This document shows positions 8,269-57,929 of a stretch of 64,000 nucleotides of DNA, piece by piece (the first letter of the stretch is position 1; each line of letters begins with the position of its first letter). A program made the translations under genes and the position numbers. Under the pieces are notes generated by a model. It worked only from the letters and a program-made list of their open reading frames with translations. It was not told the origin of the DNA and searched no databases. The stretch spans positions 62,001 through 126,000 of the forward strand of contig NZ_JABFHG010000004.1 in assembly GCF_013112485.1 (NCBI RefSeq). The letters run 5' to 3'. This DNA comes from Roseicella sp. DB1501. GTDB lineage: Bacteria; Pseudomonadota; Alphaproteobacteria; Acetobacterales; Acetobacteraceae.

Positions 8269-8337
8269 GGCAGGACCGCCGGCGAACGGGACAGGCTCGC
8301 CATCGGCGCGGCCGCGCCGGCCGTGCCGCATGAGCAG

Positions 8338-14037: not shown

Positions 14038-14143
14038 GGTGTCCTCCCACCAGCGGCTTGTCGGCGCCGCCTGGCAGGAAGCTTACGCAGGGGCGGCGCG
14101 CCGCGTCATCCGATATCGGCCGGCGGCGGCCTCCGGGAGGGGC

Positions 14144-15316: not shown

Positions 15317-15457
15317 GCCGGCACTATCGGAGTCCGGCCGGCGCGACGCAAACGCCGCTCGCGCAGTATTTCGGGAGCGGATTGCCCCTCCCGGGCGTTT
15401 CCGGGTAGGGGCGATCTGCTCTATGCCTGGAGGATCAGGAGGCAACGGCCGACTCCC

Positions 15458-16384: not shown

Positions 16385-16478
16385 GCCGCGGCCCCGCGCG
16401 CGGCCCTCGCCGGCCGTGCCGGGTCGGCAAACCCGATGGTGTTGTGCAACCTTCCCGTCCTGGGACAGTCTGGCTTCC

Positions 16479-17114
16479 GTGCTTCCGATCTCCTTGTCCC
16501 GGCCGGGCTGGCCCCGGCCTGCCGCAGCCGTCCTGACCCTCCTGCTCGGATACGCCGTCCCGGCCGGGGCGCAGTCGGGCGACCCGTCCTTCCGCGTGGT
16601 CAACAACACCCTCAAGCCGATCAACGAGGTCTATGTCTCGCCCGTCTCCTCGTCGGGCTGGGGGCATGACCGGCTGGGGGCCGATGTGGTGCCACCGGGC
16701 GGGCGGCAGCTCATCCGCCTGCCAGCCGGCACCTGCCTCTACGACATCCGCATCGTCTACCAGCAGGGCGGGGCGGAGGAGCGGCGGAACATCGACACAT
16801 GCGGCCTCGGCGACCTGATCCTCGGCGGCGGCGCCGCGGCGCCGCGCAACGCCCCCCAGGGCAACCCCTCCTTCAACCTGGTGAACCGGGGCCGGCAGGC
16901 GATCGCGGCCTTCTACGCCTCGCCCGCCTCGGCGCAGAACCAGGGGCCGGAACGACTGGGGGAGGGCAACCTGGTCCAGCCCGGCCAGTCCGTCCCGATC
17001 CGGCTGCCCTATGGCGAATGCCGCTACAACCTCCGCTGGGTCTGGCAGAACGGCAAGGCGCAGGAACGGCGGAACGTCAACGCCTGCGGCACCGCCAGCC
17101 AGGCGGTGCAGTAG
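16479..17114 (+). CDS. Secreted two-repeat protein of unknown function
   Basis: This roughly 211-residue exported protein has a signal peptide ending PAGAQ and then two copies of a module of about 75 residues. Copy 1 contains PSFRVVNNTLKPINEVYVSP and CLYDIRIVYQQGG-AEERRNIDTCG; copy 2 contains PSFNLVNRGRQAIAAFYASP and CRYNLRWVWQNG-KAQERRNVNACG. Each module ends with two conserved Cys about 20 residues apart, probably a disulfide. A GTG at 16479 gives a sensible signal peptide; an ATG at 16416 is possible but yields an unlikely leader. Confidence 0.72.
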   Translation: MLPISLSRPGWPRPAAAVLTLLLGYAVPAGAQSGDPSFRVVNNTLKPINEVYVSPVSSSGWGHDRLGADVVPPGGRQLIRLPAGTCLYDIRIVYQQGGAEERRNIDTCGLGDLILGGGAAAPRNAPQGNPSFNLVNRGRQAIAAFYASPASAQNQGPERLGEGNLVQPGQSVPIRLPYGECRYNLRWVWQNGKAQERRNVNACGTASQAVQ

Positions 17115-17243
17115 CGGCGCATCGCGGGCGGGAGGGCAGGCGGCGCTTTGATTCGGCGCGGGCCTGCCTTATCTCCCCCGGAGCAGAAGGCCGGGCGCCC
17201 CGCAGGGGACCGTCACGCCCCCTCCATGGCCGCCGGAACCCGC

Positions 17244-43574: not shown

Positions 43575-43602
43575 CGCTACTTGAAGGACGCTACTTGAAG
43601 AC
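43575..43602. repeat. Tandem duplication of the dctM gene end (14 bp x2)
   Basis: CGCTACTTGAAGGA at 43575-43588 is followed by CGCTACTTGAAGAC at 43589-43602. The second copy holds the dctM stop (CTA on the plus strand, 43591-43593); the first copy lies just downstream of the stop. Confidence 0.75.
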
Positions 43603-45006
43603 TGGCGGCGCGTCGTCGTCCGGCAGGTCGGGCAGCGGCACCTCGATGCGGACCGTGCTCGGGTCGACGCCCGTGCTCCGGTCGAGCCAGTAGGTCACGC
43701 TCTCCGGCCAGAAGATCACGATCGCCACCAGGACGAGCTGCAGCCCGACCCAGGGGATGGCGCCCCAGTAGATGTCGCGGCTGCGCACCTCCTTCGGGGC
43801 GATGCCGCGGAGATAGAAGAGCGCGAAGCCGAAGGGGGGGTGCATGAAGCTGGTCTGCATGTTCACGCAGATCAGCACGCCGAACCAGACGAGATCGATG
43901 CCGAGCTTCGCCGCCACCGGCGCGAGCAGCGGGATGATGATGAAGGCGATCTCGAAGAAGTCGAGGAAGAAGGCCAGGAAGAAGATGAAGATCTGGCTGA
44001 AGATCAGGAAGCCCACCTGGCCGCCCGGCAGCTTCGAGAGCAGGTGCTCGATCCAGATCGCGCCGTCCACCCCCTGGAAGACCAGGCTGAACACGGTGGC
44101 GCCGATCAGGATGAAGATGACCATGGCGGTGATGCGCATGGTGTTCTGGGTGGCCTGCCAGAGCAGGTCCCAGGTGAAGCGGCGGTTCACCATGGCCAGC
44201 ACGACCGCGCCGACCGCGCCCATCGCCCCCGCCTCGGTCGGCGTGGCGAGGCCGAGGAAGATGGTGCCGAGCACGAGGAAGATCAGCACGATGGAGGGCA
44301 CCATGCCCTTCAGCACCCGCCACCAGAGCTGCCAGCCGCGCTGCGTCAGCGCCTCGTCCGGCAGCGGCGGCACCCGGTGCGGCTGGAAGATGCTGACGAC
44401 GACGATGAAGCCGATGAAAAGCAGCACCTGCAGGATGCTGGGTCCGATGGCGCCGGCATACATGTCGCCGACCGACTTGCCGAGCTGGTCGCCGAGCACG
44501 ATGAGGACGAGGCTCGGCGGGATCACCTGGGTGATGGTGCCGCTGGCCGCGATGACGCCGGTGGCGATGCGCATGTCGTAGCCGTAGCGCATCATGATCG
44601 GCAGGCTGATCATGCCCATGGCGATGACCGAGGCGGCCACCGTGCCGGTGATGGCGCCGAGCACGGCGCCGACCAGGATCACCGCATAGGCGAGGCCGCC
44701 CGGCACCTTGCCGAAGAGCTGCCCGGTGCCCTCCAGCAGGTCCTCCGCCAGGCCGCAGCGTTCGAGGATCGCGCCCATCAGGGTGAAGAAGGGGATCGCC
44801 AGCAGCAGGTCGTTGGAGATGATGCCGAAGACCCGCAGCGGCAGGTTGCCGAGATAGGCCGGCGTGAAGAAGCCGAGCTCGATCGACAGGAAGCCGAAGA
44901 ACAGGCCGACGGCGGAGAGGCTGAAGGCGACCGGGAAGCCGATCAGCAGGAAGACGACGAGGCCGCCGAACATCAGCGGCGCCATCACGTCCATGTCGAT
45001 GGTCAT
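43591..45006 (-). CDS. dctM: TRAP transporter large permease (DctM type)
   Basis: This is a 471-residue, roughly 12-TM subunit that carries the ion-coupled solute path. The N-terminus MAPLMFGGLVVFLLIGFPVAFSLS and GVLIAVNM-like repeated TM segments match DctM; GAVLGAITGTVAASVIAMG is the family core and SLVLIVLGDQLGKSVGDMYAGA the second repeat. It is the last gene of the operon binding protein-dctQ-dctM. Its length is a little above the usual 425-430, with additional C-terminal residues. Confidence 0.93.
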   Translation of the reverse strand: MTIDMDVMAPLMFGGLVVFLLIGFPVAFSLSAVGLFFGFLSIELGFFTPAYLGNLPLRVFGIISNDLLLAIPFFTLMGAILERCGLAEDLLEGTGQLFGKVPGGLAYAVILVGAVLGAITGTVAASVIAMGMISLPIMMRYGYDMRIATGVIAASGTITQVIPPSLVLIVLGDQLGKSVGDMYAGAIGPSILQVLLFIGFIVVVSIFQPHRVPPLPDEALTQRGWQLWWRVLKGMVPSIVLIFLVLGTIFLGLATPTEAGAMGAVGAVVLAMVNRRFTWDLLWQATQNTMRITAMVIFILIGATVFSLVFQGVDGAIWIEHLLSKLPGGQVGFLIFSQIFIFFLAFFLDFFEIAFIIIPLLAPVAAKLGIDLVWFGVLICVNMQTSFMHPPFGFALFYLRGIAPKEVRSRDIYWGAIPWVGLQLVLVAIVIFWPESVTYWLDRSTGVDPSTVRIEVPLPDLPDDDAPPVFK

Positions 45007-45030
45007 AGGGGCGCGGATCCTGGCGAGGGT

Positions 45031-45579
45031 CTATTGCTCGGGGCGGTGGTATTCGACCACCACCTCGGCCTGCGGGGAGACGCCTCGCAGCAGGGCGATG
45101 CGCTTGATGAGCTCGGAGATGCCCTGCAGCATCAGCAGGAAGAAGCCGATCGGCAGCAGGATCTTCACCGGCCAGCGCAGCAGGCCGCCGGCATTCGGGC
45201 TGCCCTCTTCGCGCATCAGGCTGTCGAGGAAGAAGGGCCAGGTCATCCAGGCCAGCAGGGTGACCGCCGGCAGCATGAAGAAGAGGAAGCCGAAGACGTC
45301 CACCCAGAGCCGGGCCCGCTCGGACAGGCTGGAATAGAGCAGGTCCACCCGCACATGCTCGTTGCGGAACAGCGTGTAGGAGGCGCCGAGCATGACGGTG
45401 GCGCCGAAGAGGTACCACTGCACCTCGAGCCAGGCATTCGAGGAGTAGGAGACGCCGTAGCGCACGAAGGCGTTGCCGGCGGAGATCGCACAGGACAGCA
45501 GCACCGCCCAGTCGGCCAGCTTGCCGACCGCGGCGTTCAGCCTGTCCACGCCGCGGCTGAAGGCGAGCAGGGGACCCAT
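45031..45579 (-). CDS. dctQ: TRAP transporter small permease (DctQ type)
   Basis: This is a 182-residue, four-TM small subunit. It begins MGPLLAFSRGVDRLNAAVGKLADWAVLLSCAISAGNAFVRYG, with the family arginine region, and has SSNAWLEVQWYLFGATVMLGASYTLFRNEHVRVD, the conserved DctQ loop. Its length and the large gaps between TM2 and TM3 match the TakQ-like group. It lies between the binding protein and DctM genes. Confidence 0.9.
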   Translation of the reverse strand: MGPLLAFSRGVDRLNAAVGKLADWAVLLSCAISAGNAFVRYGVSYSSNAWLEVQWYLFGATVMLGASYTLFRNEHVRVDLLYSSLSERARLWVDVFGFLFFMLPAVTLLAWMTWPFFLDSLMREEGSPNAGGLLRWPVKILLPIGFFLLMLQGISELIKRIALLRGVSPQAEVVVEYHRPEQ

Positions 45580-45653
45580 GAGAGCGTGTTACCTCCCTGG
45601 CGCGCCCGCCCACCGGCGGGCCGGGGGCGGGGCGCATTCATGTCAGCAGTGTC

Positions 45654-46757
45654 TCAGCGGCGCTGCTGCTGTGCCTGAGCGTGCATCAGATAGACGAAAT
45701 TGTCGAAGGTGCTCTCGGTGACCCGGAACCACTGGTATTCGAGGTCGCGGAAGACCTTCCAGGGCTCGTAGACCTTCTTGAAGGCGGCATTCTTCGCCGC
45801 CGTCTCCTCGTAGAGCTCGAAGGCCGCCTTGTAGCAGGCCTGCATCACCTCGCGCGGGAAGGCGCGAAGCTGCGCGCCGCCTGCCACCAGGCGGCGAAGT
45901 GCCTGCGGGTTCTGCACGTCGTACTTGGCCATGGTCTCGAGCGTCGCGTCGCGGCAGGCGCTCTCCAGCACGTCCTTGTAGACCTGCGGCAGCTCGTCAT
46001 ACTTGGACTTGGCCACGTAGAAGGAGAGGTTCAGCCCGCCTTCCCACCATCCCGGGTAATAATAATAGGGCGCGACGCGGTTGAAGCCGAGCTTCTCGTC
46101 GTCATAGGGGCCGATCCATTCGGCGGCGTCGATCGTGCCCTTCTCGAGCGCCGGGTAGATGTCGCCGCCGGCGATCTGCTGCGGCACCCCGCCAAGCTTC
46201 TGCATGATGTTGCCGGCGATGCCGGCGATGCGCATCTTCAGGCCCGACAGGTCCTGGACGGTCTTGATTTCCTTGCGGAACCAGCCGCCCATCTGCGCCC
46301 CGGTGCTGCCGCAGGGGATGGAGTGGATGTTGTAGCCGGCGAAGAACTCCTGCAGCAGCTCGCGGCCGCCACCGGCATAGAGCCAGGCATTGATTTGCCG
46401 CGTGTTCATCCCGAAGGGGATCGTGGCGTCGAAGGCGAAGGTCGGATCCTTGCCGACGAAGTAATAGCTCGCCGTATGGGCGCATTCCACGGTGCCGCCC
46501 TGCACCGCATCCGCCACCTGCAGCCCCGGCACCAGCTCGCCGGCCGAGAAGACGCGGATCTGGAACTTGCCGTCGGTCAGCGCCGCGACGCGCTTCCCCA
46601 CATGCTCGCCCGCGCCGAAGATCGTGTCGAGCGAGCGCGGAAAGGAGGAGGCGCAACGCCACCGGACCTCCGGCAGCGCGCCCTGCGAGAGGGCAGGAGT
46701 AGCCAAGGCGGCGGTGCCGGCAAGGGCCCCACTAGCGATGAATCCACGACGATCCAT
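45654..46757 (-). CDS. TRAP transporter substrate-binding protein (TakP-like)
   Basis: This is a 367-residue periplasmic protein with a Tat-like leader (MDRRGFIASGALAGTAALATPALSQG). The mature start VRWRCASSFPRSLDTIFGAGEHVGKRV and the region WIGPYDDEKLGFNRVAPYYYYPGWWEGG resemble the alpha-keto acid binder TakP of Rhodobacter. It likely captures an organic acid for the DctQM permease. The leading 14 residues in the open frame are dropped in favour of the Met that starts the leader. It is divergent from hyfB. Confidence 0.9.
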   Translation of the reverse strand: MDRRGFIASGALAGTAALATPALSQGALPEVRWRCASSFPRSLDTIFGAGEHVGKRVAALTDGKFQIRVFSAGELVPGLQVADAVQGGTVECAHTASYYFVGKDPTFAFDATIPFGMNTRQINAWLYAGGGRELLQEFFAGYNIHSIPCGSTGAQMGGWFRKEIKTVQDLSGLKMRIAGIAGNIMQKLGGVPQQIAGGDIYPALEKGTIDAAEWIGPYDDEKLGFNRVAPYYYYPGWWEGGLNLSFYVAKSKYDELPQVYKDVLESACRDATLETMAKYDVQNPQALRRLVAGGAQLRAFPREVMQACYKAAFELYEETAAKNAAFKKVYEPWKVFRDLEYQWFRVTESTFDNFVYLMHAQAQQQRR

Positions 46758-46935
46758 GTGTCTGTGCTGGCTCCCGGTGCGCCCGCGCCATGACGGCAAG
46801 CGGGACCGGCCTAACTAACCTCTTGTTGCGCGCTTGTTAAGAGCGGGAATCGTGCCGTTTCAAGGTCGACCCCCCCTCGCCGCGTCGGCGGTAGGGGACT
46901 AAGCTCGGGGACGTGATGGCCCGCCTCCCGTTCCC

Positions 46936-48966
46936 GTGCTGACGCTCTTCGCGCTCTGTCTCTGGGTCCTGGTCCTGCTCGCGGCGGCGGCGGTGCCGCT
47001 CGGTCGCCATGCCCGGGCGGGGCTGGTCGTCCATGCGGGATGCCTGATCGCCTCCGTCGGGTTTGCCGTCGTGGCGCTCGCCGTGCTGCTGGGCGGCGAG
47101 CCGGTCGAATCCGGACCCTTGCCCTTCGGGCCGCCCTGGGCGCCGGCGCAAATCGGCCTCGACGGGCTGTCGGCCTGGTTCCTGCTGCTGCTCGGCATCG
47201 CCGGCAGCGCCGCCTCGCTCTTCGCCATGGAGGGCAAGGCCGGCGGGCATCCGCTGCCGGCGCGCGCCCTGCCGCCCTTTCCGCTCTTCCTTGCCGGCAT
47301 GGCCCTGACGCTCGCCGCGACGGACGCCTTCCTGCTCCTCCTCGGCTTCGAGCTGATGTCCTTCGCCTCCTGGGCGCTGGTCGCCGCCGAGCACGAGAAG
47401 CCGGAGAACCGCGCGGCGGCGCGGCTCTACCTTGTCTTCGCGGTGCTGGCCGGCGCCTGCCTGGTCCCGGCCTTCGGGCTGCTGGCCGGCCAGGCCGGGG
47501 CGCTCGATTTCGCCGCGATGCGCGACGCCCCGCCGGAGGGTTGGCGCGCCGCCGCGGTGCTGCTGCTCGGCCTGCTCGGCGCTGGCGCCAAGGCGGGCTT
47601 GGTGCCGCTGCATGCCTGGCTGCCGCTCGCCCATCCGGCGGCGCCCAGCCATGTCTCGGCGCTGATGTCGGGGGCGATGACCAAGATCGCGCTCTACGTG
47701 CTGGCGCGGCTGCTGCTCGACCTCTGCGGCCCGGCGCAGCCCTCCTGGTGGGGCGTGCCGCTGCTCGTGCTCGGCGCCGCCTCGGCCCTGTTCGGGGCGC
47801 TGCGGGCCAATCTTGAGGATGACGCCAAGACCCTGCTGGCCTGCTCGACCATCGAGAATATCGGCTTCATCACCCTCGGCTTCGGCCTGGCGCTCGCCTT
47901 CCGCGGCGCCGATCTCGGGCCGCTGGCGGCGCTCGCCGCCGGCGCGGCGCTGCTGCACGCGCTGAACCACGGCGTCTTCAAGACCGGGCTCTTCCTGATG
48001 GCCGGCGCGGTGCTGCACGGCGCCGGCAGCCGCCGCCTGGACCGGCTGGGCGGGCTGATCCACGCCATGCCGGTCACCGCCCTCGCGGCGCTGATCGGCG
48101 CCGCGGCCGCGGCCTCGCTGCCGCCGCTCTCGGGCTTCGCCAGCGAATGGCTGCTGCTGCAGGCGCTGCTCGCCGGCTGGCGGGTCAGCGATATCGGCTT
48201 CCAGGTGCTCACCGCCGCGGCCGCGGCCGTCGCGGCGATGGCGGCGGCGCTCGCCGCGGCGGCGATGGTGCGGTTCTTCGGCCTCGTCTTCCTCGGCCGC
48301 CCGCGCAGCCCGCGCGGCGCCGGGGCGCGGGAGGCCGGCCGCTTCGAGCGCGCCGCCATGCTGCTGCCGGCGGGGCTGACGGTGCTGCTCGGCCTCTTCC
48401 CCGGCAGCGTGCTGGGGCTGGCCGCGCCGGCCCTGCAGGAACTGGTCGGCCCGGTCATGCGGGTGCCGGCGCGCGGCGCCTCGCTGGCTGCGGGCGAGGG
48501 CATGACCGGCTACGCGCCGCTCGTCATCGCCCTGTTGCTGGCCCTCGCCCTCGGCGTCACCTGGCTGCTGGTGCGGCGCCGCTCCCCGGCGGCGACCGCG
48601 CGCGGGCCGGTCTGGAATTGCGGCTTCATCGACCCGCCGCCGCATCTCCCCTTCGGCGACCCGCTGACCCAGCCCGGTGCGGCCGGCATCGCCCAGCCGC
48701 TGCGCCGCATGCTGGGCGAGACGCTGCTGCAGGCGCGCGAGAGCGTCGACATGCCGGCGCCGGGCGAGACCCGGCCGGGCCGCCATGCGGTGCGGTTCGC
48801 GGACCCCTCGGGCGCCCTGCTGCTCGGCCCGGCGGCGCGGCTGCGCGACCGCATCGCCGGTGCGGCGGAGCGGATGCGCCACTTCACCATCCGTCGCTGC
48901 CTCTCGCTCAGCTTCGCCACCCTGGTCGGGATGCTGGCGTTGCTGGCCTGGCTGGAGGCGCGCTGA
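46936..48966 (+). CDS. hyfB: Hydrogenase-4-like antiporter subunit HyfB
   Basis: This is a 676-residue, about 16-TM protein related to NuoL and the Mrp antiporter subunits. It would pump protons or sodium. Typical segments are FAMEGKAGG, GAKAGLVPLHAWLPLAHPAAPSHVSALMSGAMTKIALY with the conserved Lys and His, LEDDAKTLLACSTIENIGFI, and AALLHALNHGVFKTGLF with the key Lys. It starts with GTG at 46936 and is the first gene of the operon. An AT-richer divergent gap of 178 bases separates it from the TRAP binding-protein gene. Confidence 0.92.
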   Translation: MLTLFALCLWVLVLLAAAAVPLGRHARAGLVVHAGCLIASVGFAVVALAVLLGGEPVESGPLPFGPPWAPAQIGLDGLSAWFLLLLGIAGSAASLFAMEGKAGGHPLPARALPPFPLFLAGMALTLAATDAFLLLLGFELMSFASWALVAAEHEKPENRAAARLYLVFAVLAGACLVPAFGLLAGQAGALDFAAMRDAPPEGWRAAAVLLLGLLGAGAKAGLVPLHAWLPLAHPAAPSHVSALMSGAMTKIALYVLARLLLDLCGPAQPSWWGVPLLVLGAASALFGALRANLEDDAKTLLACSTIENIGFITLGFGLALAFRGADLGPLAALAAGAALLHALNHGVFKTGLFLMAGAVLHGAGSRRLDRLGGLIHAMPVTALAALIGAAAAASLPPLSGFASEWLLLQALLAGWRVSDIGFQVLTAAAAAVAAMAAALAAAAMVRFFGLVFLGRPRSPRGAGAREAGRFERAAMLLPAGLTVLLGLFPGSVLGLAAPALQELVGPVMRVPARGASLAAGEGMTGYAPLVIALLLALALGVTWLLVRRRSPAATARGPVWNCGFIDPPPHLPFGDPLTQPGAAGIAQPLRRMLGETLLQARESVDMPAPGETRPGRHAVRFADPSGALLLGPAARLRDRIAGAAERMRHFTIRRCLSLSFATLVGMLALLAWLEAR

Positions 48967-49926
48967 GTGCAGGTCTTCGGAGCCATCCTGGCGCAGCTTC
49001 TGCACCTGCTGTTCATGCTCGCGGCGGCGCCGCTCGTCCTCGGCGTCACGCGCTGGCTGAAGGCGCGGCTGATGGGACGGCGCGGCGCCTCGCCGCTGCA
49101 GCCCCTCCGCGACCTCGACAAGCTGCTGCGCAAGCGGCCGGTGCTGGCGGAGAACGCCTCCGTCGTCTCGGAGGCGGCGCCCTATGTCGCCTTCGCCGCC
49201 TGCCTGCTCGCCATCGCGCTGGTGCCGAGCTTCGCCCGCGGCATGGCCTTCGCCCCCTTCGCCGACCTGATCCTGCTGGCCGGGCTGCTGGCGCTGTCCC
49301 GCATTGCGCTGGCCCTGGCGGGGATGGATGTCGGGACGGCCTTCGGCGGCCTCGGCGCGGCGCGGGAGATGAGCTTCGCCGCCTTCGCCGAGCCGGCGCT
49401 GCTGCTCTGCGTGCTGAACTTCGTGATCCTGGCCGGGAGCACCAATCTCGACCTGATCGCCGGCACCTTCCGCGACGGCGCGCTCGGCCTGCGCGTCTCG
49501 CTCGGCCTCGCGGCGGTGGCGATGCTGGCGGTCGCGGTCGCCGAGAATGCCCGCATCCCGGTGGACAATCCGGCGACGCATCTCGAGCTGACGATGGTGC
49601 ACGAGGCGATGCTGCTCGAAAGCAGCGGCCGGCACCTGGCGCTCTGGGAATACGGCGCGGCGCTGCGCCTGACGCTCTGGCTGTCGCTGGTCGCCGCCAT
49701 CTTCGTGCCCTTCGGCACGGCGCCGGCGGGCAGTGGGCCGCTCGCCTGGGCGGTCGGTCTGCTGGCCTGGCTGCTGAAGATGGGCGCGCTCTGCCTCGCC
49801 CTGGCCTGGTTCGAGAGCGCGATCGCCAAGATGCGCGTCTTCCGCGTGCCGGAATTCCTCGGCGCGGCGCTGCTGCTGGCGCTCCTCGGCGCGGCGCTGC
49901 TCTTCGTCAGCACGGGGCTGGCATGA
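48967..49926 (+). CDS. hyfC: Hydrogenase-4-like membrane subunit HyfC (NuoH-like)
   Basis: This is a 319-residue, eight-TM NuoH-type subunit that links the iron-sulfur arm to the proton-pumping arm. Signatures include LQPLRDLDKLLRKRPVLAENASVV, the quinone/ion channel region AVAENARIPVDNPATHLELTMVHEAMLLE and WEYGAALRLTLW. It begins with a GTG directly after the hyfB stop (TGAGTG). Conserved acidic residues in NPATHLELTMVHE are intact, which supports a working ion path. Confidence 0.92.
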   Translation: MQVFGAILAQLLHLLFMLAAAPLVLGVTRWLKARLMGRRGASPLQPLRDLDKLLRKRPVLAENASVVSEAAPYVAFAACLLAIALVPSFARGMAFAPFADLILLAGLLALSRIALALAGMDVGTAFGGLGAAREMSFAAFAEPALLLCVLNFVILAGSTNLDLIAGTFRDGALGLRVSLGLAAVAMLAVAVAENARIPVDNPATHLELTMVHEAMLLESSGRHLALWEYGAALRLTLWLSLVAAIFVPFGTAPAGSGPLAWAVGLLAWLLKMGALCLALAWFESAIAKMRVFRVPEFLGAALLLALLGAALLFVSTGLA

Positions 49927-50591
49927 GCTTCGGCCAGCTCCCCTACGATGTCTCGCACCTGCTCGGCGGCGGCATGCTGCTGCTCTCCTTCGTGCTGCTC
50001 TACCAGCGCCGCGTCGGGGCGGTGATCAATGCCCTGGCGATGCAAGGCGGCATCCTCGCCCTCGCCGCCGCCTGGCAGGCCCTGGTGCAGGGCGCGCCGC
50101 AGCTCTACCTGACGGCGCTGATCGCCCTCGGAGCCAAGGCGGTGCTGATCCCGCTCGCGCTCCGCACCCTGCTGCGCCGGCTCGACCTGCACCGGACCGT
50201 GGAGACCGCGCTCGGCATCGGGCCGAGCCTCGTCGCAGGGGTGGCACTGGTCGCCCTCGCCATCCTGGTGGTGCTGCCGATCACCGCCGGCAACCGCGCC
50301 ATCGCGCGGGAGGATCTGGCGCTCGCCCTCTCGGTGGTGCTGCTCGGCATGCTGATGATGATCACCCGCCGCAACGCCATCCTGCAGGTGGCGGGGCTGA
50401 TGACGCTGGAGAACGGGCTGATCCTCGCCGCGGTCGGCGTCGCCGGCATGCCGCTGGTGGTTGAGCTCTCGACCGCCGCGCTGGTGATGATGCTGCTCGT
50501 CGTCGGCGGCGTCTTCGTGTTCCAGATCCGGGAGCGCTTCGACACCGTCGATACCGGCTTCCTCGAGCGCCATCGCGGGGAGGCCGATTGA
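49923..50591 (+). CDS. hyfE: Hydrogenase-4-like membrane subunit HyfE
   Basis: This is a 222-residue, about six-TM subunit of the hydrogenase-4 type, related to NuoK at its C-terminal half (MLMMITRRNAILQVAGLMTLENGLILAAVG). It has the conserved Glu in TLENG. It overlaps hyfC by four bases (ATGA) and its stop overlaps the hyfF ATG. No HyfD-like antiporter gene lies between, so the complex has two antiporter-like subunits rather than three. Confidence 0.9.
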   Translation: MSFGQLPYDVSHLLGGGMLLLSFVLLYQRRVGAVINALAMQGGILALAAAWQALVQGAPQLYLTALIALGAKAVLIPLALRTLLRRLDLHRTVETALGIGPSLVAGVALVALAILVVLPITAGNRAIAREDLALALSVVLLGMLMMITRRNAILQVAGLMTLENGLILAAVGVAGMPLVVELSTAALVMMLLVVGGVFVFQIRERFDTVDTGFLERHRGEAD

Positions 50592-52030
50592 TGCCGCTGT
50601 CCTGGGCCGTCGTCTTCCTGCCATGGGCCGGCGCGCTGCTGCTCGCCGTGCTGCCGCGGGAGCGGCCGGCGACGCTCGCCAATATCGCCGTCTCGGCGGC
50701 GAGCCTCGTCCTCGCGCTGCTGCTGCTCGGGCATCCCGGCGGCATCGAGGGGTGGACGCATGTCGATGCGCTGAACCTGCCGCTGGTCCTGCTCTCCTTC
50801 ACCATCGGGCTGACCACCGCGGTCTTCTCGCTCGGCGCCATCGGGGCGGAGCGGTTCGATGCGTTGCGGCTGCGCGCCTACCATGTCGCCTTCCAGGTCT
50901 TCATGGGGGCGCAGGCTCTCGCGCTGCTCGCCGACAACATGGGGGTGATGTGGGTGGCGATCGAGATCGCGACCCTGGCCAGCGTGCTCATCGTCGCGGT
51001 GCACGGCACGCCCACGGCGATCGAGGCGGCCTGGAAGCTGTTCATCCTCTGCGGCGTCGGCATCGCCCTCGCGCTCTTCGGCACCATCATTCTCTATCTC
51101 GCGGCGCAGCCCTTCGTCGGGCATGGCGATTCCGGCCTCTCTTGGACGGTGCTGCACGGCATCGCCGAGCGCTGCGACCCCGGCGTGCTGAACCTCGCCT
51201 TCGTCTTCCTGCTCGTCGGCTACGGCACCAAGGCCGGGCTGGTGCCACTGCATTCCTGGCTGCCGGATGCCGAGGCGGAGGGGCCGATCGCCATCTCCGC
51301 CGTGCTGTCGGGCCTGTTGCTGAACGCGGCGCTGCATGCGGTGATCCGCACCAAGGCAATCGTCGGCGTGCATCCCGGGGCGGTGCCGCCCGGACCCTTC
51401 CTCATCGCCTTCGGCCTGGCCTCGCTGCTGCTCGCCGCCTTCGCGCTCTGGCGGCGGCGCGACGCGCGGCGCTTCTTCGCCTGGTCGAGCATCGAGCATA
51501 TGGGCCTCGCCGCGCTCGCCTTCGGCCTCGGCGGCGCCACCGCCAACCTCGCGGGGCTGCTGCACATGCTCGGCCACTCCCTCTGCAAGTCGGCCGTCTT
51601 CTTCGGCGTCGGCCATGCGGCGCAGCTCAAGGGCTCGCAGAAGACGGCGGCGATCGGCGGGTTGGCGACGAGCCATCCGGCCTTCGGCTGGTCGCTCGCG
51701 CTCGCCATCGCCGCCGTCGCCGGCCTGCCGCCCTTCGCGCTCTTCGCCAGCGAGTTCCTCATCGTCTCCGATGCCGCCGCCTCGCGCTGGTGGCTGATCC
51801 TGCCGCTCGGCCTCGGCCTGCTGACCGCGGCGGCGGCGAAGGTCCACATGCTGCAGGCGCTCTGCCTCGGCGATCCGACGCCGGGCGGGGACGCGCCGCC
51901 GCCGGGCTGGACGGCGCGCACCACCCTCGGGCCGGTCTGGGTGCATCTCGGCCTCGCCCTGCTGCTCGGCATCGCGCTCCCCGCGCCCTTCGCCAGCCTG
52001 CTCGCCGCCGCGGCGAGGATTCCGGGATGA
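50591..52030 (+). CDS. hyfF: Hydrogenase-4-like antiporter subunit HyfF
   Basis: This is a 479-residue, about 14-TM antiporter-like subunit (NuoM/NuoN type). Visible parts are AYHVAFQVFMGAQALALLADNMGVMWVAIEIATLASV, GTKAGLVPLHSWLPDAEAEGPIAISAVLSGLLLNAALHAVIR and RRFFAWSSIEHMGLAALAFGLGG with LLHMLGHSLCKSAVFF, keeping the conserved Lys. I chose the ATG at 50591 (overlapping the hyfE stop) instead of the TTG three bases earlier. Confidence 0.92.
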   Translation: MPLSWAVVFLPWAGALLLAVLPRERPATLANIAVSAASLVLALLLLGHPGGIEGWTHVDALNLPLVLLSFTIGLTTAVFSLGAIGAERFDALRLRAYHVAFQVFMGAQALALLADNMGVMWVAIEIATLASVLIVAVHGTPTAIEAAWKLFILCGVGIALALFGTIILYLAAQPFVGHGDSGLSWTVLHGIAERCDPGVLNLAFVFLLVGYGTKAGLVPLHSWLPDAEAEGPIAISAVLSGLLLNAALHAVIRTKAIVGVHPGAVPPGPFLIAFGLASLLLAAFALWRRRDARRFFAWSSIEHMGLAALAFGLGGATANLAGLLHMLGHSLCKSAVFFGVGHAAQLKGSQKTAAIGGLATSHPAFGWSLALAIAAVAGLPPFALFASEFLIVSDAAASRWWLILPLGLGLLTAAAAKVHMLQALCLGDPTPGGDAPPPGWTARTTLGPVWVHLGLALLLGIALPAPFASLLAAAARIPG

Positions 52031-53535
52031 GCCTTGTCGAGATCATCCGGCGCGGCGCGCCGCAGGATTGCCGCCCCCGGCCGCGCTTCCTGCTGACCCG
52101 GCCGCAATGGGGCACGATGGCCGAGGCCCTGGCGGCGGAGGCCGATCCGGCCCTGCTGGCGATGTGGGGCGAGCCCGGCATGGTGCATGCCGCCTTCTGG
52201 CTCGAGGCCGAGGCCGCCATGCTGCTCGCCTCCTGCCCGGCGGCGGATGGGCGCTTCCCCGCGCTCTCGCCGGCGCGGCCGGGCGCCGTGCGGTTCGAGC
52301 GCATGCTGCATGACCTCTGGGGGCATGTGGCCGAGGGCGCCGTCGATCTCCGGCCCTGGCTCGACCATGGCCGTTGGCCCATTGCGGCGCCGCTCGCCGC
52401 CCGGCCGGAGGCGAATGCCGCCCCGCCGCCGCAGCCGGCATTCCTCGGCGTGGAGGGCGAGGGGGTGCACCAGATCCCGGTCGGGCCGGTGCATGCCGGC
52501 ATCATCGAGCCCGGGCATTTCCGCTTCCACGTCCAGGGCGAGACAGTCGCGCGGCTCGAGGAGCGGCTCGGCTATGTCCATAAGGGGCTCATCGGCCTGA
52601 TGCTGGGCAAGCCGCCGGCGGCGGCGGCGAAGCTCGCGGCGCGGCTTTCCGGCGACAGCACCGTCGCGCATGGCTGGGCCTTCGCGCGGGCGGTGGAGGC
52701 GGCGCTCGTGGTCGTGCCGCCGCCGCGCGCCGTGGCTCTGCGCGGCGTGATGGCCGAGCTGGAGCGCATCCACAACCACCTGAACGACTGGGGTTTCGTC
52801 TGCAACGACGCCGCCTTCGCCTGGCCGCATGCGCAATGCGGCGTGCTGCGCGAGGGCGTGCTGCGCGCCGCGGCGGCCGCCTTCGGGCATCGGCTGATGA
52901 TGGATTGCGTGGTGCCGGGCGGCGTGGCCGCGGATCTGGCGCCCGGCGGCGCCGAGGCGATCCTCGCCGCGCTCGCGGTGGTGGAGGCGGCGATCCCCGG
53001 CCTGCTCGATGTCTATGAGGGCCATGCCAGCCTGCAGGATCGCGTCGTCGGCACCGGCATCCTGCGGGCGCCGCTCGCCGCGCGCTTTGCCGCCGGCGGC
53101 TATGTCGGCCGTGCCGCGGGGCGCGGCTTCGATGCCCGCAAGGCCGCGCCCTACGAGCCCTATGACCGGCTGCCGCCGGAGGTGCCGGTGCGCGACCAGG
53201 GCGATGTCGATGCGCGGGTCCGCATCCGCGTCGCGGAACTCGGCGAATCGCTGCGGCTGGTGCGCGCGCTGCTGGATGAGCTGCCCGCGGGCGAACTGAC
53301 CGTGTCGCTGCCGCGCCGTGGCGGCGAGGGCATCGGACTGATCGAGGGCTTCCGCGGCGAGTGCCTGCACTGGGTGGCGCTCGACGAGGCCGGGCTGCTG
53401 CGCGCCGCCTTCCCGCGCGATCCGTCCTGGCTGCAATGGCCTCTGCTCGAGGCCGCGATCGAGGGCAACATCGTCGCGGACTTCCCGCTCTGCAACAAGA
53501 GCTTCAACTGCTCCTATAGCGGGGTCGATCTGTGA
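52027..53535 (+). CDS. hyfG: NiFe-hydrogenase-like large subunit lacking nickel ligands (Ehr-like)
   Basis: This is a 502-residue fusion of a short NuoC-like N-terminus and a NuoD/HycE-like domain (from about residue 140; IPVGPVHAGIIEPGHFRF, ERIHNHLNDWGF). In HycE the L1 motif is RVCGICGFAH; here residues 206-215 are RLSGDSTVAH, with Ser in place of both cysteines. The C-terminal DPCxxC is replaced by residues 485-502, DFPLCNKSFNCSYSGVDL, with at most one aligned Cys. It therefore cannot hold a normal [NiFe] site. By family knowledge this fits energy-converting hydrogenase-related (Ehr) complexes. It overlaps hyfF by four bases. Confidence 0.9.
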   Translation: MSLVEIIRRGAPQDCRPRPRFLLTRPQWGTMAEALAAEADPALLAMWGEPGMVHAAFWLEAEAAMLLASCPAADGRFPALSPARPGAVRFERMLHDLWGHVAEGAVDLRPWLDHGRWPIAAPLAARPEANAAPPPQPAFLGVEGEGVHQIPVGPVHAGIIEPGHFRFHVQGETVARLEERLGYVHKGLIGLMLGKPPAAAAKLAARLSGDSTVAHGWAFARAVEAALVVVPPPRAVALRGVMAELERIHNHLNDWGFVCNDAAFAWPHAQCGVLREGVLRAAAAAFGHRLMMDCVVPGGVAADLAPGGAEAILAALAVVEAAIPGLLDVYEGHASLQDRVVGTGILRAPLAARFAAGGYVGRAAGRGFDARKAAPYEPYDRLPPEVPVRDQGDVDARVRIRVAELGESLRLVRALLDELPAGELTVSLPRRGGEGIGLIEGFRGECLHWVALDEAGLLRAAFPRDPSWLQWPLLEAAIEGNIVADFPLCNKSFNCSYSGVDL

Positions 53536-53930
53536 CCATCGCCCTTTCCCCGCCCTTGCCGGTGCTGCGCATCTTCGACGTGGCGAAGGCGCGGGAATTC
53601 TATGTCGGCTTCCTCGGCATGAGCTGGGACTGGGAGCACCGCTTCGCGCCGGACCTGCCGCTCTACGCCCAGGTCTCGCGCGGCGCGCTGGTGCTGCATC
53701 TCAGCGAGCATCACGGCGATGCCTGCCCGGGCGCGGCGCTGCGCATCCATGTGTCGGGGGAGGGTGGGCTGGAGGCGCTGCATGCGGCGCTGGCAGGCGC
53801 CCGCTACCGCCATGCGCGGCCGGGGATCGAGGCGAAGCCCTGGGGCGAGCGCGCGCTCAGCGTGATCGATCCCTTCGGCAATCGGCTGACCTTCCATGCG
53901 CCGGCGCCGCCAGCCCCGGAGGATGGCTGA
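53532..53930 (+). CDS. VOC/glyoxalase superfamily protein inside the hyf operon
   Basis: This is a 132-residue single VOC module (LPVLRIFDVAKAREFYVGFLGMSWDWEHRF...VIDPFGNRLTFH) resembling bleomycin-resistance-type members. The GTG start is inside the hyfG stop (GTGA) and the TGA overlaps the hyfI ATG, so it is translationally coupled on both sides. Conserved metal residues are ambiguous, with a His at the C-terminal strand. The position is where HyfH ferredoxin would normally lie. Its role in the complex is unknown. Confidence 0.85.
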   Translation: MTIALSPPLPVLRIFDVAKAREFYVGFLGMSWDWEHRFAPDLPLYAQVSRGALVLHLSEHHGDACPGAALRIHVSGEGGLEALHAALAGARYRHARPGIEAKPWGERALSVIDPFGNRLTFHAPAPPAPEDG

Positions 53931-54463
53931 TGCTCTGGCCAAAGCTCGCCCGCAACCTGGTCGGCCGGCCGCTGACCGACCCGCCGCCCGCCGTCTCGCC
54001 GGAGGTGGTGCAGGCGCTCGCCCTGCGGCTGGAGGAGAGCGCGCAGAAGCGGCTCGGCCGCAGCCTGGCGATCCGTCAGGTGGATGCCGGGAGCTGCAAT
54101 GCCTGCGAGCTCGAGATCAACGCCCTCGGCAATGTCATCTACGATCTGGAGCGGTTCGGGCTGCGCTTCGTCGCCTCGCCCCGCCATGCCGATGTGCTGC
54201 TCGTCACCGGGCCGCTGACGCGCAACCTGCGCGAGGCGCTGCTGCGCGCCCGCGCCTGCACGCCGGACCCCTGCTGGGTGGTGGCGGTGGGTGACTGCGC
54301 CGTGGATGGCGGGCTGTTCAAGGACAGCTATGCGGTGGAAGGCGGCGTCGCCGCGGCGCTGCCGGTGGATCTGATCATCCCGGGCTGCCCGCCGACGCCG
54401 ACCCGCCTGCTGGAGGGGTTGCTGGCGCTGCTGGAGGCACAGGTGAGCCAGCGCAGCCGATAA
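53930..54463 (+). CDS. hyfI: Hydrogenase-4-like small subunit HyfI (NuoB-like)
   Basis: This is a 177-residue NuoB/HyfI-type subunit. Four ligands for the N2-type [4Fe-4S] cluster are present: C56 and C59 (GSCNACELEI), C123 (GDCA) and C153 (PGCPP). The intact cluster contrasts with the missing nickel ligands of its partner. It is the last gene of the operon and is followed by a hairpin. It could be a complex-I-type subunit in isolation, but the neighbours favour the hydrogenase-4 family. Confidence 0.92.
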   Translation: MLWPKLARNLVGRPLTDPPPAVSPEVVQALALRLEESAQKRLGRSLAIRQVDAGSCNACELEINALGNVIYDLERFGLRFVASPRHADVLLVTGPLTRNLREALLRARACTPDPCWVVAVGDCAVDGGLFKDSYAVEGGVAAALPVDLIIPGCPPTPTRLLEGLLALLEAQVSQRSR

Positions 54464-54500: not shown

Positions 54501-54941
54501 GGCTGCCCGAAGGCGGCCAGTCTGGCGACGGCTTGCCGGGAAATAGCCGCCGCCGAACGCCGTCCGTCCGAACCCCGGAGGGCATCAGGACGACGGACTG
54601 AGGATCGCCCAAGCCGCCTCAACGGGAGATGTGAGGGCGCTTACAATCGAGCAATGCTTTCCCGCGGGGCCTTTCTGTCGAACGCTGCGATGGCACGCCC
54701 GCCGATCGATCCGGCCTTCTCCGCCAGCTCCATCTCCCGATCATCCCGATCTCCATCGCCGGGACGGCAATGGCGACGCCCGGTACGGCGTCACCCCTGC
54801 TGTTCGTTGCGTTACCACTCTAAGTTGTGAAGCCCCATGCCTTGCCACCATAAGATGTTCGACCCGTTATTAACGAAGCAAAACGGGGAAGCCTGCCTGA
54901 CCCGTCGGGGGGCAGCGGGGCTTACCGCTCGGGGTGACGTT
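54501..54941 (+). promoter_or_regulatory. Long gap with an AT-richer promoter segment upstream of the GH16-RTX gene
   Basis: The gap after the hyf terminator holds no supportable gene; the frames here lack family similarity. The segment 54805-54900 is relatively AT-rich (GCGTTACCACTCTAAGTTG, GACCCGTTATTAACGAAGC). It includes the 13-mer CCACTCTAAGTTG at 54815-54827, related to the palindrome at 41320. Confidence 0.4.
54815..54827. promoter_or_regulatory. 13-mer related to the palindrome upstream of the other RTX-type gene
   Basis: CCACTCTAAGTTG differs at two positions from CAACTATAAGTTG at 41320-41332. Each lies in the upstream gap of one of the two RTX-type genes of the window. Confidence 0.3.
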
Positions 54942-57929
54942 ATGGCGGACGCCAATACCAGCGTGCCTGACGCGGCTCTTCTCACGGCCTTGGCCTTGCC
55001 GCAGAGCGGAACGCCGATGCAGTGGATCATCGGCGGGCAGGAGGCGCGCCTCATCACCGGCACCTCGGCCGATGATGGGCTGGCCGGGCCCGATATCAGT
55101 TCCCGTCTCACGCTCGAGGGCGGCGCCGGGGACGACAGCTATCAGGTCGGCAACCACTACGATTTCGTCCACGAACTGGTCGATGAAGGCATCGATACGG
55201 TCATTTCAACGGCCGATGCCTTCACGCTGCCGGAGGCTGTCGAGAACCTGATCGTCCTGGCCGATCGCGGCTATGGCAGTGGCAACGAGCTCAACAATCG
55301 GATCGAGGGCGGGGACTACGCGCAGATCCTGAACGGCGGCGGCGGCACCGACCTGCTGACGGGCGGCAGCGGCGCCGATGTCTTCCAGTTCCTAGCCGGT
55401 GGCGGCTGGGACGTGATCACCGATTTCGAGACCGGCACCGACCGCCTGCACCTCGCCGCCTTCGACGGCTTCGCCACCGCAGCGGCCGTCCTCGCCGCAC
55501 TGCGGCAGAACGGCGAGAATGTGGAGCTCGATCTCGGCGGCGGGCAGGGCATCACCTTCCTGGACCGGAGCATCGCCGACTTCTCCGCGAGCGACTTCCT
55601 GCTGCCGGCCGATCCGGCCGCGCTGACGCTGACCTTCGCCGAGGAATTCGATAGTTTTGCCTGGTCGGTGGACGGCAGCGAGGGCTGGCGGACCACCTAT
55701 ACGGGCGGCGACAGGGCCTATCCGGGCAATGGCGACCAGCAGTATTTCACCGATGCCACGCTTGGCCAGTCGCCCTTCCGCCTCGAGGACGGCGCCCTCG
55801 TCATCACCGCCTCGCCCGGCGAGAATGCGCTGGGCCTGCCCTATAATTCCGGGCTGATCACCAGCCAGGGAGCCTTCAGCCAGCTCTACGGGTTTTTCGA
55901 GGCGCGGATCGACATCCCCGATGGCACGGGCTGGTGGCCCGCCTTCTGGATGCTGCCGGCGACCGGCGGCTGGCCGCCGGAGCTCGACATCCTGGAGAGC
56001 TTCGGCACCGGGGACCCGACCGCCCAGGTCACCGCCCATACCAGCAATGGCACGACGCGGAGCTCGGTCAGCATCCCGGTTGCCTTCCCCGACATCGCCT
56101 CGGGCTACCACACATATGCCGTGAGCTGGCTGCCGGACGAGATCCGCTGGTATATCGACGGCGTCGAGGTCGCCAGCACCCTGACGCCCGCGGACATGCA
56201 GGTCCCGATGTACATGCTGCTCAACCTCGCCGTCAGCAATGCGACGGCGGCGGCCGGGGCCAGCGCCGATATGTATATCGACTATGTCCGGGCTTACGCC
56301 TATTCGGCCGAGACCGTCGCCGCGCATGTCGATACCAGCGACACGCTGGTCAGCGCCGTGAGCGCCGTGCTGCCGGACGGCCTGCACACGTTGATGCTGA
56401 CCGGCACCGGGACGCTGACCGGCACCGGCAATGCGCTCGACAACCGGCTGGTGGCGGAGGCGGGGCACGCGGCGCTGCTGGGTCTGGCCGGCGACGACTA
56501 CCTCCTTGGCGGCACCGGCAACGACACCCTCGATGGCGGCCTCGGCAAGGACCGGATGCTGGGCGGCCCCGGCGATGACAGCTATGTCGTCGACAATCTC
56601 GGTGACCGGGTGATTGAGCTGGCCGGGCAGGGCACCGATATGGTGAGCAGCTCAATCGGCTACACGCTGGGCGCCAATCTCGAGAATTTGGTTCTGACGG
56701 GTGCCGCGGCGCTTGGCGGCGCCGGCAATGATCTGGCGAACCGCCTCACCGCCAATGCCGCCGGCTCGCGCCTCTATGGCTATGGCGGCGAGGACACGCT
56801 GATCGGCGGCACGGGCAATGACCAGCTCGACGGCGGCAGCAGCGCCGATCTGATGATCGGCGGCTTCGGCGACGATACCTATTTCGTCGACGATGCGCGC
56901 GACATGGTGGTCGAGCTCGCCAATCAGGGCGGCGATCTCGTCCGCAGCGCCATCACCTACACGCTGGGCGCCAATCTGGAGAAGCTCATCCTCACCGGCA
57001 CCGCCAATATCGACGGCACCGGCAACGAGCTGGCGAACCGCCTCTTCGGCAATGCCGGCGCCAACCGCCTCGATGGCGGCGCTGGGGATGACTATCTCGA
57101 TGGCGGCGCGGGCAACGACACCATGGCCGGGGGCACCGGCAACGACACCTATATCGTCGATGCCCTCGGCGACCGGGTGGTGGAGCTGGCCGGGCAGGGC
57201 ACCGATACGGTGAGCAGCGCGATCGGCTATACGCTCGGCGCCAATCTCGAGAACCTGGTGCTGACCGGCACGGCGATGATCGGCGGTGCCGGCAACGAGC
57301 TGGCGAACCGCCTCACCGCCAATGCCGCCGGCTCGCGCCTCTATGGCTATGGCGGCAACGACACGCTGGTCGGCGGCGCGGGCAATGACCAGCTCGATGG
57401 CGGCAGCGGCGCCGACACCATGAGCGGTGGCGCCGGGGACGACAGCTACATCGTCGACGATGCGCGCGACCTGGTGGTCGAGCTCGCCGGCCAGGGCCTG
57501 GATGTCGTCCGCAGCAGCATCAACTACACGCTGGGCGCCAATCTGGAGAAGCTCATCCTCACTGGCACCACCAATATCGACGGCACCGGCAATGCGCTGG
57601 ACAACCGCCTCTTCGGCAATGCCGGCACCAACCGTCTCGATGGCGGCGCCGGGGATGACTGGATCGAGGGCGGGGCAGGCAGCGACACCCTGACCGGCGG
57701 TGCGGGGGCGGATCTCTTCGTCCTGGCCCCCGGCTGCGGCAATGTCGTGGTCACCGATTTCGGCACCGGCGCCGACCGGCTGGTGCTCTCGGCCTTCCAT
57801 GCCGCGCTGCCCGGGATGAGCGTGACCCAGGCCGGGGCGAACACCGTGCTGCATTTCGCGGCAGGCGAATCGATCACCCTGCTCGGCGTCGCCTCGGTCA
57901 CGCTCTGGGGCGACTACATCCTGCCCTGA
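54942..57929 (+). CDS. Secreted GH16 beta-glycanase with RTX repeats (ExsH-like)
   Basis: This is a roughly 995-residue protein without a Sec signal. A first RTX-like block (about residues 25-215) has LTGGSGADVFQFLAGGGWDVITDFETGTD. A GH16 domain follows (about 225-460), starting LTFAEEFDSF, with the catalytic ELDILESFG (ExDxxE) and GWWPAFWMLP. The C-terminus is a long array of nonapeptide-like repeats (GGAGNDxLxGG) ending WGDYILP. It fits type I secreted glycanases such as rhizobial ExsH that trim exopolysaccharide. An ATG at 54837 is also in frame; I chose 54942. Confidence 0.88.
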   Translation: MADANTSVPDAALLTALALPQSGTPMQWIIGGQEARLITGTSADDGLAGPDISSRLTLEGGAGDDSYQVGNHYDFVHELVDEGIDTVISTADAFTLPEAVENLIVLADRGYGSGNELNNRIEGGDYAQILNGGGGTDLLTGGSGADVFQFLAGGGWDVITDFETGTDRLHLAAFDGFATAAAVLAALRQNGENVELDLGGGQGITFLDRSIADFSASDFLLPADPAALTLTFAEEFDSFAWSVDGSEGWRTTYTGGDRAYPGNGDQQYFTDATLGQSPFRLEDGALVITASPGENALGLPYNSGLITSQGAFSQLYGFFEARIDIPDGTGWWPAFWMLPATGGWPPELDILESFGTGDPTAQVTAHTSNGTTRSSVSIPVAFPDIASGYHTYAVSWLPDEIRWYIDGVEVASTLTPADMQVPMYMLLNLAVSNATAAAGASADMYIDYVRAYAYSAETVAAHVDTSDTLVSAVSAVLPDGLHTLMLTGTGTLTGTGNALDNRLVAEAGHAALLGLAGDDYLLGGTGNDTLDGGLGKDRMLGGPGDDSYVVDNLGDRVIELAGQGTDMVSSSIGYTLGANLENLVLTGAAALGGAGNDLANRLTANAAGSRLYGYGGEDTLIGGTGNDQLDGGSSADLMIGGFGDDTYFVDDARDMVVELANQGGDLVRSAITYTLGANLEKLILTGTANIDGTGNELANRLFGNAGANRLDGGAGDDYLDGGAGNDTMAGGTGNDTYIVDALGDRVVELAGQGTDTVSSAIGYTLGANLENLVLTGTAMIGGAGNELANRLTANAAGSRLYGYGGNDTLVGGAGNDQLDGGSGADTMSGGAGDDSYIVDDARDLVVELAGQGLDVVRSSINYTLGANLEKLILTGTTNIDGTGNALDNRLFGNAGTNRLDGGAGDDWIEGGAGSDTLTGGAGADLFVLAPGCGNVVVTDFGTGADRLVLSAFHAALPGMSVTQAGANTVLHFAAGESITLLGVASVTLWGDYILP
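56569..57703 (+). repeat. Two tandem copies of a 567-bp coding repeat in the RTX array
   Basis: Identical landmarks recur 567 bases (189 residues) apart: GCCGGGCAGGGCACCGAT at 56622 and 57189, and the block CGCCTCACCGCCAATGCCGC at 56742 and 57309. Each unit has an A half (NLENL...RLTANAAGSRLYGYGG) and a B half (NLEKLIL...RLFGNAG). High DNA identity suggests a fairly recent duplication or gene conversion. Confidence 0.85.

Follow-up and report, generated by a model that had tools for sequence, protein, structure and literature searches.

The window analysed here (the whole stretch of 64,000 nucleotides of Roseicella sp. DB1501, contig NZ_JABFHG010000004.1, positions 62,001 to 126,000) carries a hyf-like cassette of seven consecutive + strand genes, their ends mostly overlapping, for HyfB, HyfC, HyfE, HyfF, HyfG, a VOC-family protein and HyfI. 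To judge from its sequence, the complex encoded by this cassette is of the Ehr type and is not a [NiFe] hydrogenase, because the nickel ligands of its large subunit HyfG are lost, the cassette has six subunits in the order B-C-E-F-G-I, a HyfA/HyfH-like subunit was not found in it and HypD was not found in the genome. Ehr complexes are relatives of the group 4 hydrogenases without metal-binding residues, suspected to link charge movement to a redox reaction (PMC6349859); PMC10284858 gives their function as unknown. Unexpected was a repeated loss of the HyfI cluster ligands in the wider clade to which the window HyfG belongs, and it suggests that the core job of the complex may not need the old redox chemistry. 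We propose, at somewhat less than an even chance, that the complex is an ion translocator in which the emptied HyfG pocket would act as a charge switch and not as a metal active site. The Ehr class was reportedly first described by Marreiros and co-workers in 2013, in an account that may already include six-subunit forms. Neither the charge-switch reading nor a redox-free reading of Ehr translocation was found in the open-licence literature searched, and the main text of PMC10715153, on respiratory enzymes of Acetobacteraceae, contains neither "Ehr" nor "hyf".

The large subunit HyfG (52027..53535, + strand, 502 aa) is HycE-like, a NuoC-NuoD fusion by alignment, profiles and fold. E. coli K-12 HycE, HyfG and NuoCD from NC_000913 were aligned with the window HyfG and its family (97 rows). 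Residue counts for the family were taken from the window plus the 96 loci with a best HyfG segment above 330 bits, out of a pool of 143 (L033-L109, L113-L120 and L150-L209 without 203 and 204); a row entered the counts of a subunit if it exceeded 75% of the length of the window protein, and over half of the rows are near relatives (the L033-L091 group), so the counts overstate independence. HycE residues C241, C244, C531 and C534 align to window S208, S211, S496 and G499, leaving S, S, S and G where a group 4 [NiFe] hydrogenase has its four cysteine ligands. The first ligand motif, RVCGICGFAH in HycE, reads RLSGDSTVAH in the window (residues 206-215, 52642..52671, + strand), in agreement with the first-pass annotation, which had both N-terminal cysteine ligands as serines; its further statement that the C-terminal DPCxxC is gone was equally correct, HycE SLDPCYSC being replaced by DFPLCNKSFNCSYSGVDL (residues 485-502, 53479..53532, + strand). 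Position 208 is S in 97/97 rows; 211 is S in 67, T in 22, A in 6, M in 1 and C in 1; 496 is S in 93 and A in 3, with one gap; and 499 is G in 96, with one gap. The alignment was also checked for four nickel cysteines at shifted positions: none of the HyfG columns that reach 95% conservation over the 97 rows holds a cysteine, so the quartet is not hidden elsewhere in the protein and a hydrogenase with displaced ligands is ruled out. The window HyfG stops directly after the C-terminal motif, and the C-terminal extension of HycE is missing.

Around the positions of the old ligands new residues have become fixed: D210 (97/97), N490 (94/97), K491 (95/97) and N494 (95/97), the last three lying in the C-terminal motif; the column of K491 is Gly in E. 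coli HycE, HyfG and NuoCD. Roles were assigned to HyfG residues by comparison with the residue functions mapped in formate hydrogenlyase (PMC9474812). H251, R362 and E404, which belong to the proton path, are each kept in 97/97 rows, as is the canopy arginine R443 (HycE R478; 53353..53355, + strand), and E161 (52507..52509, + strand), the beta1-beta2 loop glutamate in the column of HycE E193 and MbhL E21 with a role taken from PMC9474812 and PMC7684303, is kept in 96/97. The canopy aspartate, which is retained even in complex I (PMC9474812), has become N494. The column of the quinone-binding tyrosine of complex I NuoD holds G209 (94/97) and that of the beta1-beta2 loop histidine holds I160 (95/97), so that the window HyfG has neither the two residues that hold the quinone headgroup in complex I nor its canopy aspartate. 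Because ligand, quinone-site and canopy columns all differ, the HyfG pocket, as read from the alignment, matches that of neither hydrogenase, complex I nor MBS.

By every search the closest solved relative of the window HyfG was HycE of formate hydrogenlyase (phmmer E 1.7e-47). A profile search against solved structures gave E 2.2e-97 for 7z0s_E (HycE) and 1.1e-65 for 6cfw_L, and Foldseek placed the predicted HyfG structure (mean pLDDT 87, pTM 0.90; segments 109-143 and 154-161, the latter in the loop with E161, are poor) nearest to 7z0s_E with a TM-score of 0.90. The likeness to E. coli formate hydrogenlyase Hyd-3/Hyd-4 (HycE, HyfG; PDB 7z0s) extends to the full-length NuoC-NuoD fusion, the relative order HyfB-C-E-F-G-I, the CxxC small subunit, the beta1-beta2 glutamate and the canopy arginine; unlike in formate hydrogenlyase, the nickel ligands, the HyfA, HyfD and HyfH genes and the C-terminal extension are missing from the cassette and HypD from the genome, and the canopy Asp is Asn. 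When a tree of 65 HyfG rows was built with the motif columns removed, the 46 rows without ligands formed one clade apart from the HycE/HyfG hydrogenases (SH-aLRT 99), with diverged Acetobacteraceae forms on long branches. The window HyfG groups within this clade of ligand-less proteins gathered in the present analysis, and its ligand columns hold no cysteine; the earlier call of a non-hydrogenase of the Ehr kind is thereby upheld. Relatives with four cysteines in the nickel columns, added later, fall inside the wider clade (2-3 state changes), so that nickel-ligand loss was not one clean event. Other Acetobacteraceae (L188-L190 and L196-L202, except L198) have strongly diverged HyfG proteins whose ligand columns hold different residues again; beside three of them (L197, L200, L202) a HyfI match was not found.

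Cassette content was assessed in 49 family loci (L113-L118, L150-L187, L205-L209). All six subunits stand in the order B-C-E-F-G-I in 43 of these; four of the other six are truncated by contig ends, L206 has no HyfE match, and L153 has no HyfI match though about 4 kb was available downstream of hyfG. Electron-input subunits were sought with E. coli HyfA, HyfH and NuoF as probes (tblastn, 1e-4), a search that a much diverged ferredoxin could escape. No HyfA/HyfH match was obtained in the 49 loci within the available stretch, and the same search does give such matches in the true hydrogenase loci L192-L195 and L198. HypD (PF01924), one of the Hyp proteins required for the NiFe cofactor (PMC12134894), was not found in the window's genome (6.0 Mb, 47 contigs, 98.4% complete), which thus lacks the component tested of the Hyp maturation machinery of group 4 [NiFe] hydrogenases; it was above cut-off in 24 of 70 genomes bearing a family HyfG (70 of the 84 such genomes encountered were used for this and the formate dehydrogenase count). 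A separate NuoD is present in the window's genome. TIGR01591 formate dehydrogenase was found about 28 kb downstream of the cassette, with no formate dehydrogenase gene found within it; among the 70 genomes this family was above cut-off in 37 and a weaker superfamily match was present in 69, so that formate dehydrogenase as an obligate partner is unsupported.

The window cassette resembles other Ehr complexes in its group 4 large-subunit fold, absent nickel ligands and antiporter-like subunits, with which hydrogenase activity is impossible (PMC6349859, PMC10284858); it is unlike them in having six subunits with no formate dehydrogenase, NuoE/F-like or ferredoxin subunit found, and in the fixed SGD/NKS pocket signature of its family. 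It is widespread: 62 of 398 Pseudomonadota genomes drawn, the window's among them, contain a HyfG match with an E-value of at most 2.8e-95; the one after these is at 5.1e-57, and the 15 weaker matches include hydrogenases, diverged forms and one fragment of 47% identity. The cassette is conserved in Alpha- and Betaproteobacteria (the plasmid records) and in many families of the Pseudomonadota, and it is carried by plasmids of Azospirillum, Rhizobium, Bradyrhizobium, Methylovirgula and Cupriavidus with varying annotated neighbours.

The membrane and small subunits in the window are HyfB (46936..48966, + strand, 676 aa, GTG start; PF00361 E 7.3e-47, NCBIfam hydrogenase 4 subunit B 1.1e-181, under its cut-off), an antiporter-like subunit; HyfC (48967..49926, + strand, 319 aa; PF00146 E 8.4e-33), a NuoH-like membrane anchor; HyfE (49923..50591, + strand, 222 aa), assigned by cassette position and an NCBIfam hydrogenase 4 membrane subunit match (1.6e-17, under cut-off) and with no Pfam match found at 1e-3; HyfF (50588..52030, + strand, 480 aa, TTG start; PF00361 E 2e-44, NCBIfam hydrogenase 4 subunit F 3.1e-159, just under cut-off), also antiporter-like; and HyfI (53930..54463, + strand, 177 aa; PF01058 E 6.2e-30), the NuoB-like small subunit. 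With two PF00361 subunits plus HyfC and HyfE, the operon holds the antiporter-like subunits expected of an Ehr. The four cysteines of the proximal [4Fe-4S] cluster of HyfI (C56, C59, C123, C153) are kept in 93/93 family members with the CxxC spacing of hydrogenases; HyfC E142, E193, D200, E207, E213, E218 and E283 are kept in 86-87/87, HyfB E139, K219, K298, H341, H345, K349 and E404 in 72-75/75, and HyfF E126, K215 and K334 in 92-93/94, in full accord with the first reading of cluster cysteines, HyfC channel residues and antiporter lysines as intact. The ratio of nonsynonymous to synonymous substitution (dN/dS) was 0.05-0.23 for the seven genes against Roseicella frigidaeris (L080), the nearest named relative by HyfG (91% identical), 0.16-0.43 against L033 (six genes, as L033 lacks the VOC gene) and 0.33-0.48 against L055, dS being rough in this high-GC genome. 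Residue conservation and dN/dS support the view that the membrane complex is maintained. The first-pass annotation had gone on to a working complex that moves ions by a redox or conformational reaction; the maintained membrane complex stands; the driving reaction may or may not be redox, as the cluster is fixed here and was lost several times in relatives.

We examined these relatives in two further phyla. Searches matched 44 of 301 Chloroflexota genomes at 1e-45 (30 of 49 matching loci were read) and 42 of 244 Cyanobacteriota genomes (30 of 42 matching loci were read); 40 of these loci were taken with their flanks, and trees and residue tables were made from the 40 and 31 loci of the window's family. 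Of the 60 loci read, 58 gave a HyfI; 38 of these proteins retain every cluster ligand and 20 have lost three or four. Group I comprises 12 Chloroflexota loci with the window's six-gene order and with no HyfA/HyfH match, and has D, mostly A, D and N at the four cluster columns: its HyfI has GSDN..EIE in place of window GSCNACELE, GDDAC in place of GDCAV and IPGNPP in place of IPGCPP, free of gaps in the rows shown, and is 40-46% identical to the window HyfI (47-55% over the best stretch). The best HyfI match in each of the 12 genomes is the Cys-less copy of the cassette, and the further, weaker matches are presumably NuoB- and Ech-like proteins. All 12 loci nevertheless keep the pocket and most membrane residues of the window: HyfG S208, G209, D210, N490, K491, S492, N494, S496, Y497 and G499; all nine scored HyfB residues, including E139, K219, K298, H341, H345, K349 and E404; HyfF E126, K150, K215 and K334; and HyfC E142, E193, R196, D200, E207, E213, E218, K271 and E283.

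Cluster cysteines have also been lost outside group I. Groups III (6 loci) and IV (2 loci) lack three or four cluster ligands and keep four cysteines at the nickel columns. No cysteine stands at any of the four cluster columns in HyfI of Mycobacterium branderi or in the HyfI-like protein of an Allomeiothermus silvanus plasmid; both have an N-terminal extension with four cysteines that by eye could hold one cluster, with only sub-threshold Pfam Fer4 matches in the A. silvanus protein. On both the HyfG tree and a four-subunit tree six changes of the cluster state are required; for the four-Cys nickel state the former requires three and the latter two. A single clade of cluster-less rows was rejected by the approximately unbiased test (p-AU 1.3e-36; 5.6e-4 when A. 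silvanus and M. branderi are left out), the groups in these clade tests having been named after the data were seen. The A. silvanus plasmid carries two practically identical HyfG copies (L119:8995-11144 and NC_014213.1 248007-249284), the cluster-Cys-less HyfI adjoining the first. Thirteen Chloroflexota loci (L291-L296, L299-L305) have four cysteines at the nickel columns with ELCYxC in place of DPCxxC, and HypD was found in 4 of the 13 genomes; as HyfI of L291-L296 is without three or four cluster ligands, these loci may encode a metal site that lacks a proximal cluster.

The mechanism that we favour would work as follows. HyfB, HyfC, HyfE and HyfF would form a translocator for H+ (or Na+), the ion and the direction of its movement being conjectural, joined to a HyfG-HyfI arm without a NiFe centre. 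The HyfG residues S208-G209-D210 with N490-K491-S492, N494, S496, Y497 and G499, presumably close to each other in space, would make up a charged, protonatable switch adjoining R443, H251, E404, R362 and E161, residues of the former proton path. This pocket may be a protonation switch or a ligand switch, in which K491 would be the key new residue and D210 a likely second participant; its charge state would be passed through the acidic channel of HyfC to the antiporter subunits. The HyfI [4Fe-4S] cluster that remains in the lineage of the window may set, gate or drive that charge, reduced by a postulated soluble donor at the face exposed by the missing HyfH. Ion translocation, with switching and not catalytic turnover, would be the conserved activity because group I, though without the redox centres, retains the pocket together with most membrane parts; since the HyfI cluster is fixed in 93/93 members of the window's family, electrons probably still matter there, as gate or as drive. 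For the Ehr clade at large we hold a tentative view that we believe to be somewhat likelier wrong than right: the clade would be a branch of the complex I superfamily with conserved ion translocation and no redox catalysis, having undergone 2-3 nickel-ligand state changes and about six cluster losses, with the 12 Chloroflexota cassettes encoding a complex I-like machine of six subunits in which no redox cofactor ligand was found, and the window's family as a still cluster-bearing member with the same pocket. A natural series that loses metal centre and cluster while keeping much of the coupling path and the pump residues would separate the parts for redox work from those for ion work, and so bear on the long-standing question of how redox events in the hydrophilic arm of complex I are coupled to distant ion transport in the membrane; it would also hint at a function for complexes from soil and plant-associated bacteria whose subunits now carry hydrogenase 4 or NADH dehydrogenase annotations.

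Several observations weigh against the favoured mechanism. The fixed cluster cysteines of the window's family are hard to explain if electrons are uninvolved. Group I is 26-36% identical to the window in HyfB, HyfC, HyfF and HyfG, and a single clade of group I and the window's family was neither found nor rejected (p-AU 0.07). Its HyfG has Glu at 211 and a variable residue 206, its HyfC has Asn for D100, mostly Lys for R112 and often Thr for S220, and its HyfF varies at H304, H330 and E389. M. branderi has lost HyfG K491, R443 and S208 and several HyfB and HyfC charges; A. silvanus has lost HyfG S208 and HyfC K271, with D210 and E218 swapped for the homologous acids. The absence of HypD is likewise not general, the gene being above cut-off in 11/12 genomes of group I, 3/7 of group II, 1/6 of group III and 0/2 of group IV.

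The main alternative is a redox pump, in which reduced ferredoxin or another soluble donor would feed the HyfI cluster and, through it, a quinone in the emptied HyfG pocket, driving H+ translocation; we consider it possible, at a probability well short of even. The invariant HyfI cysteines with their hydrogenase spacing are what such a pump would need, as are the fold and gene order of the superfamily. Cassette hosts are quinone-respiring aerobes. The pocket itself argues otherwise, as Gly, Ile and Asn occupy the columns of the quinone-site Tyr, His and canopy Asp, and loss of the canopy Asp impairs quinone reduction in complex I (PMC9474812). No electron-input subunit was found in the cassette with the E. 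coli probes; formate dehydrogenase, the partner suggested for other Ehr (PMC6349859), is above cut-off in just over half of the genomes counted; and the same pocket persists in group I, where the cluster is gone. Compared with complex I (NuoB, NuoCD, NuoH, NuoL/M/N), the window shares the core fold and many ion-translocation residues, but its small subunit lacks the tandem CC and its cassette has no NADH module.

Quite unlikely, in our estimate, is an enzyme of the MBS kind that would use the proximal cluster itself to reduce some small substrate, for instance a sulfane sulfur, within the emptied cavity. The precedent is P. furiosus MBS, which is related to hydrogenases and whose proximal cluster is catalytic (PMC7684303), and the window complex is like MBS/MBX (PDB 6u8y) in lacking a working NiFe site. 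MBS differs, however, in having lost two of the four nickel cysteines, in its three-Cys catalytic cluster with a shortened loop and in its electron-input subunit, for which no counterpart was found here; the window's family keeps all four cluster cysteines. According to PMC7684303, MBS also has no equivalent of MbhL E21, which is kept here as E161, one acidic residue being noted in the MBS beta1-beta2 loop by PMC9474812. It is less probable still, and would surprise us, that the cassette is the decaying remnant of a formate hydrogenlyase operon: lost metal ligands, the L153 locus without a HyfI match despite room for one and the strongly diverged copies in other Acetobacteraceae would fit decay, but the frames are intact, dN/dS is below 1, new residues have been fixed and the cassette is conserved across Alpha- and Betaproteobacteria and many families of the phylum. 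A hydrogenase with an altered metal site is close to refuted; the nearest solved relatives by sequence and fold are indeed HycE, MbhL or complex I subunits, yet none of the four ligand columns of the window HyfG holds a cysteine and HypD is missing from the genome.

The VOC/glyoxalase-family gene (53532..53930, + strand; PF19581 E 8.7e-43) lies between hyfG and hyfI; the first-pass annotation had presented it as an embedded addition made by this operon. Its presence is confirmed, with a dN/dS of 0.23 against R. frigidaeris, and its significance is not: a VOC gene occupies this interval in 13 of 93 loci, the other 80 having hyfG and hyfI mostly no more than 30 bases apart, with eight wider gaps. 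The gene is a sporadic passenger that, on this distribution, cannot belong to the general function of the cassette, and VOC as a functional partner is ruled out. A conserved electron-donor neighbour was not seen in 58 loci among the top 45 clusters listed (at least 4 loci each), a count that a rarer partner could escape. In 24 of the 58 loci, both rhizobial and many others (for example L114 6464-6760), hyfB has a helix-turn-helix regulator gene directly upstream; 13 of these genes form one cluster, with a single member on the opposite strand, and 11 form another. Among the clusters listed (at least 4 loci) no such cluster was present for the near Acetobacteraceae loci. In the window, three divergent genes upstream of hyfB (43591-46799, - strand) appear by eye to be TRAP transporter-like, and such genes recur upstream in several Acetobacteraceae loci.

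Some variant cassettes were also recorded. Two tandem HyfB matches open the cassettes of L172, L173 and L182, and the HyfB match of Siccirubricoccus sp. G192 (L084 3934-5959) is split into two adjoining pieces. Variovorax sp. PBL-E5 (L210) has two tandem cassettes (2331-9615 and 13027-18603): HyfI of the first is fused to a ferredoxin-like domain, whereas the other cassette, its genes annotated as hyfB, H, formate hydrogenlyase, F, C, runs off the end of the stretch. The Mycobacterium tuberculosis genes Rv0082-Rv0087, a putative hydrogenase/formate hydrogenlyase locus, are similar by their annotation (hycD, hycP, hycQ, hycE and two oxidoreductase genes; PMC6901956). Downstream of the window cassette (54837-57929) lies a long repeat-rich frame that by eye resembles a calcium-binding, glycan-cleaving protein.

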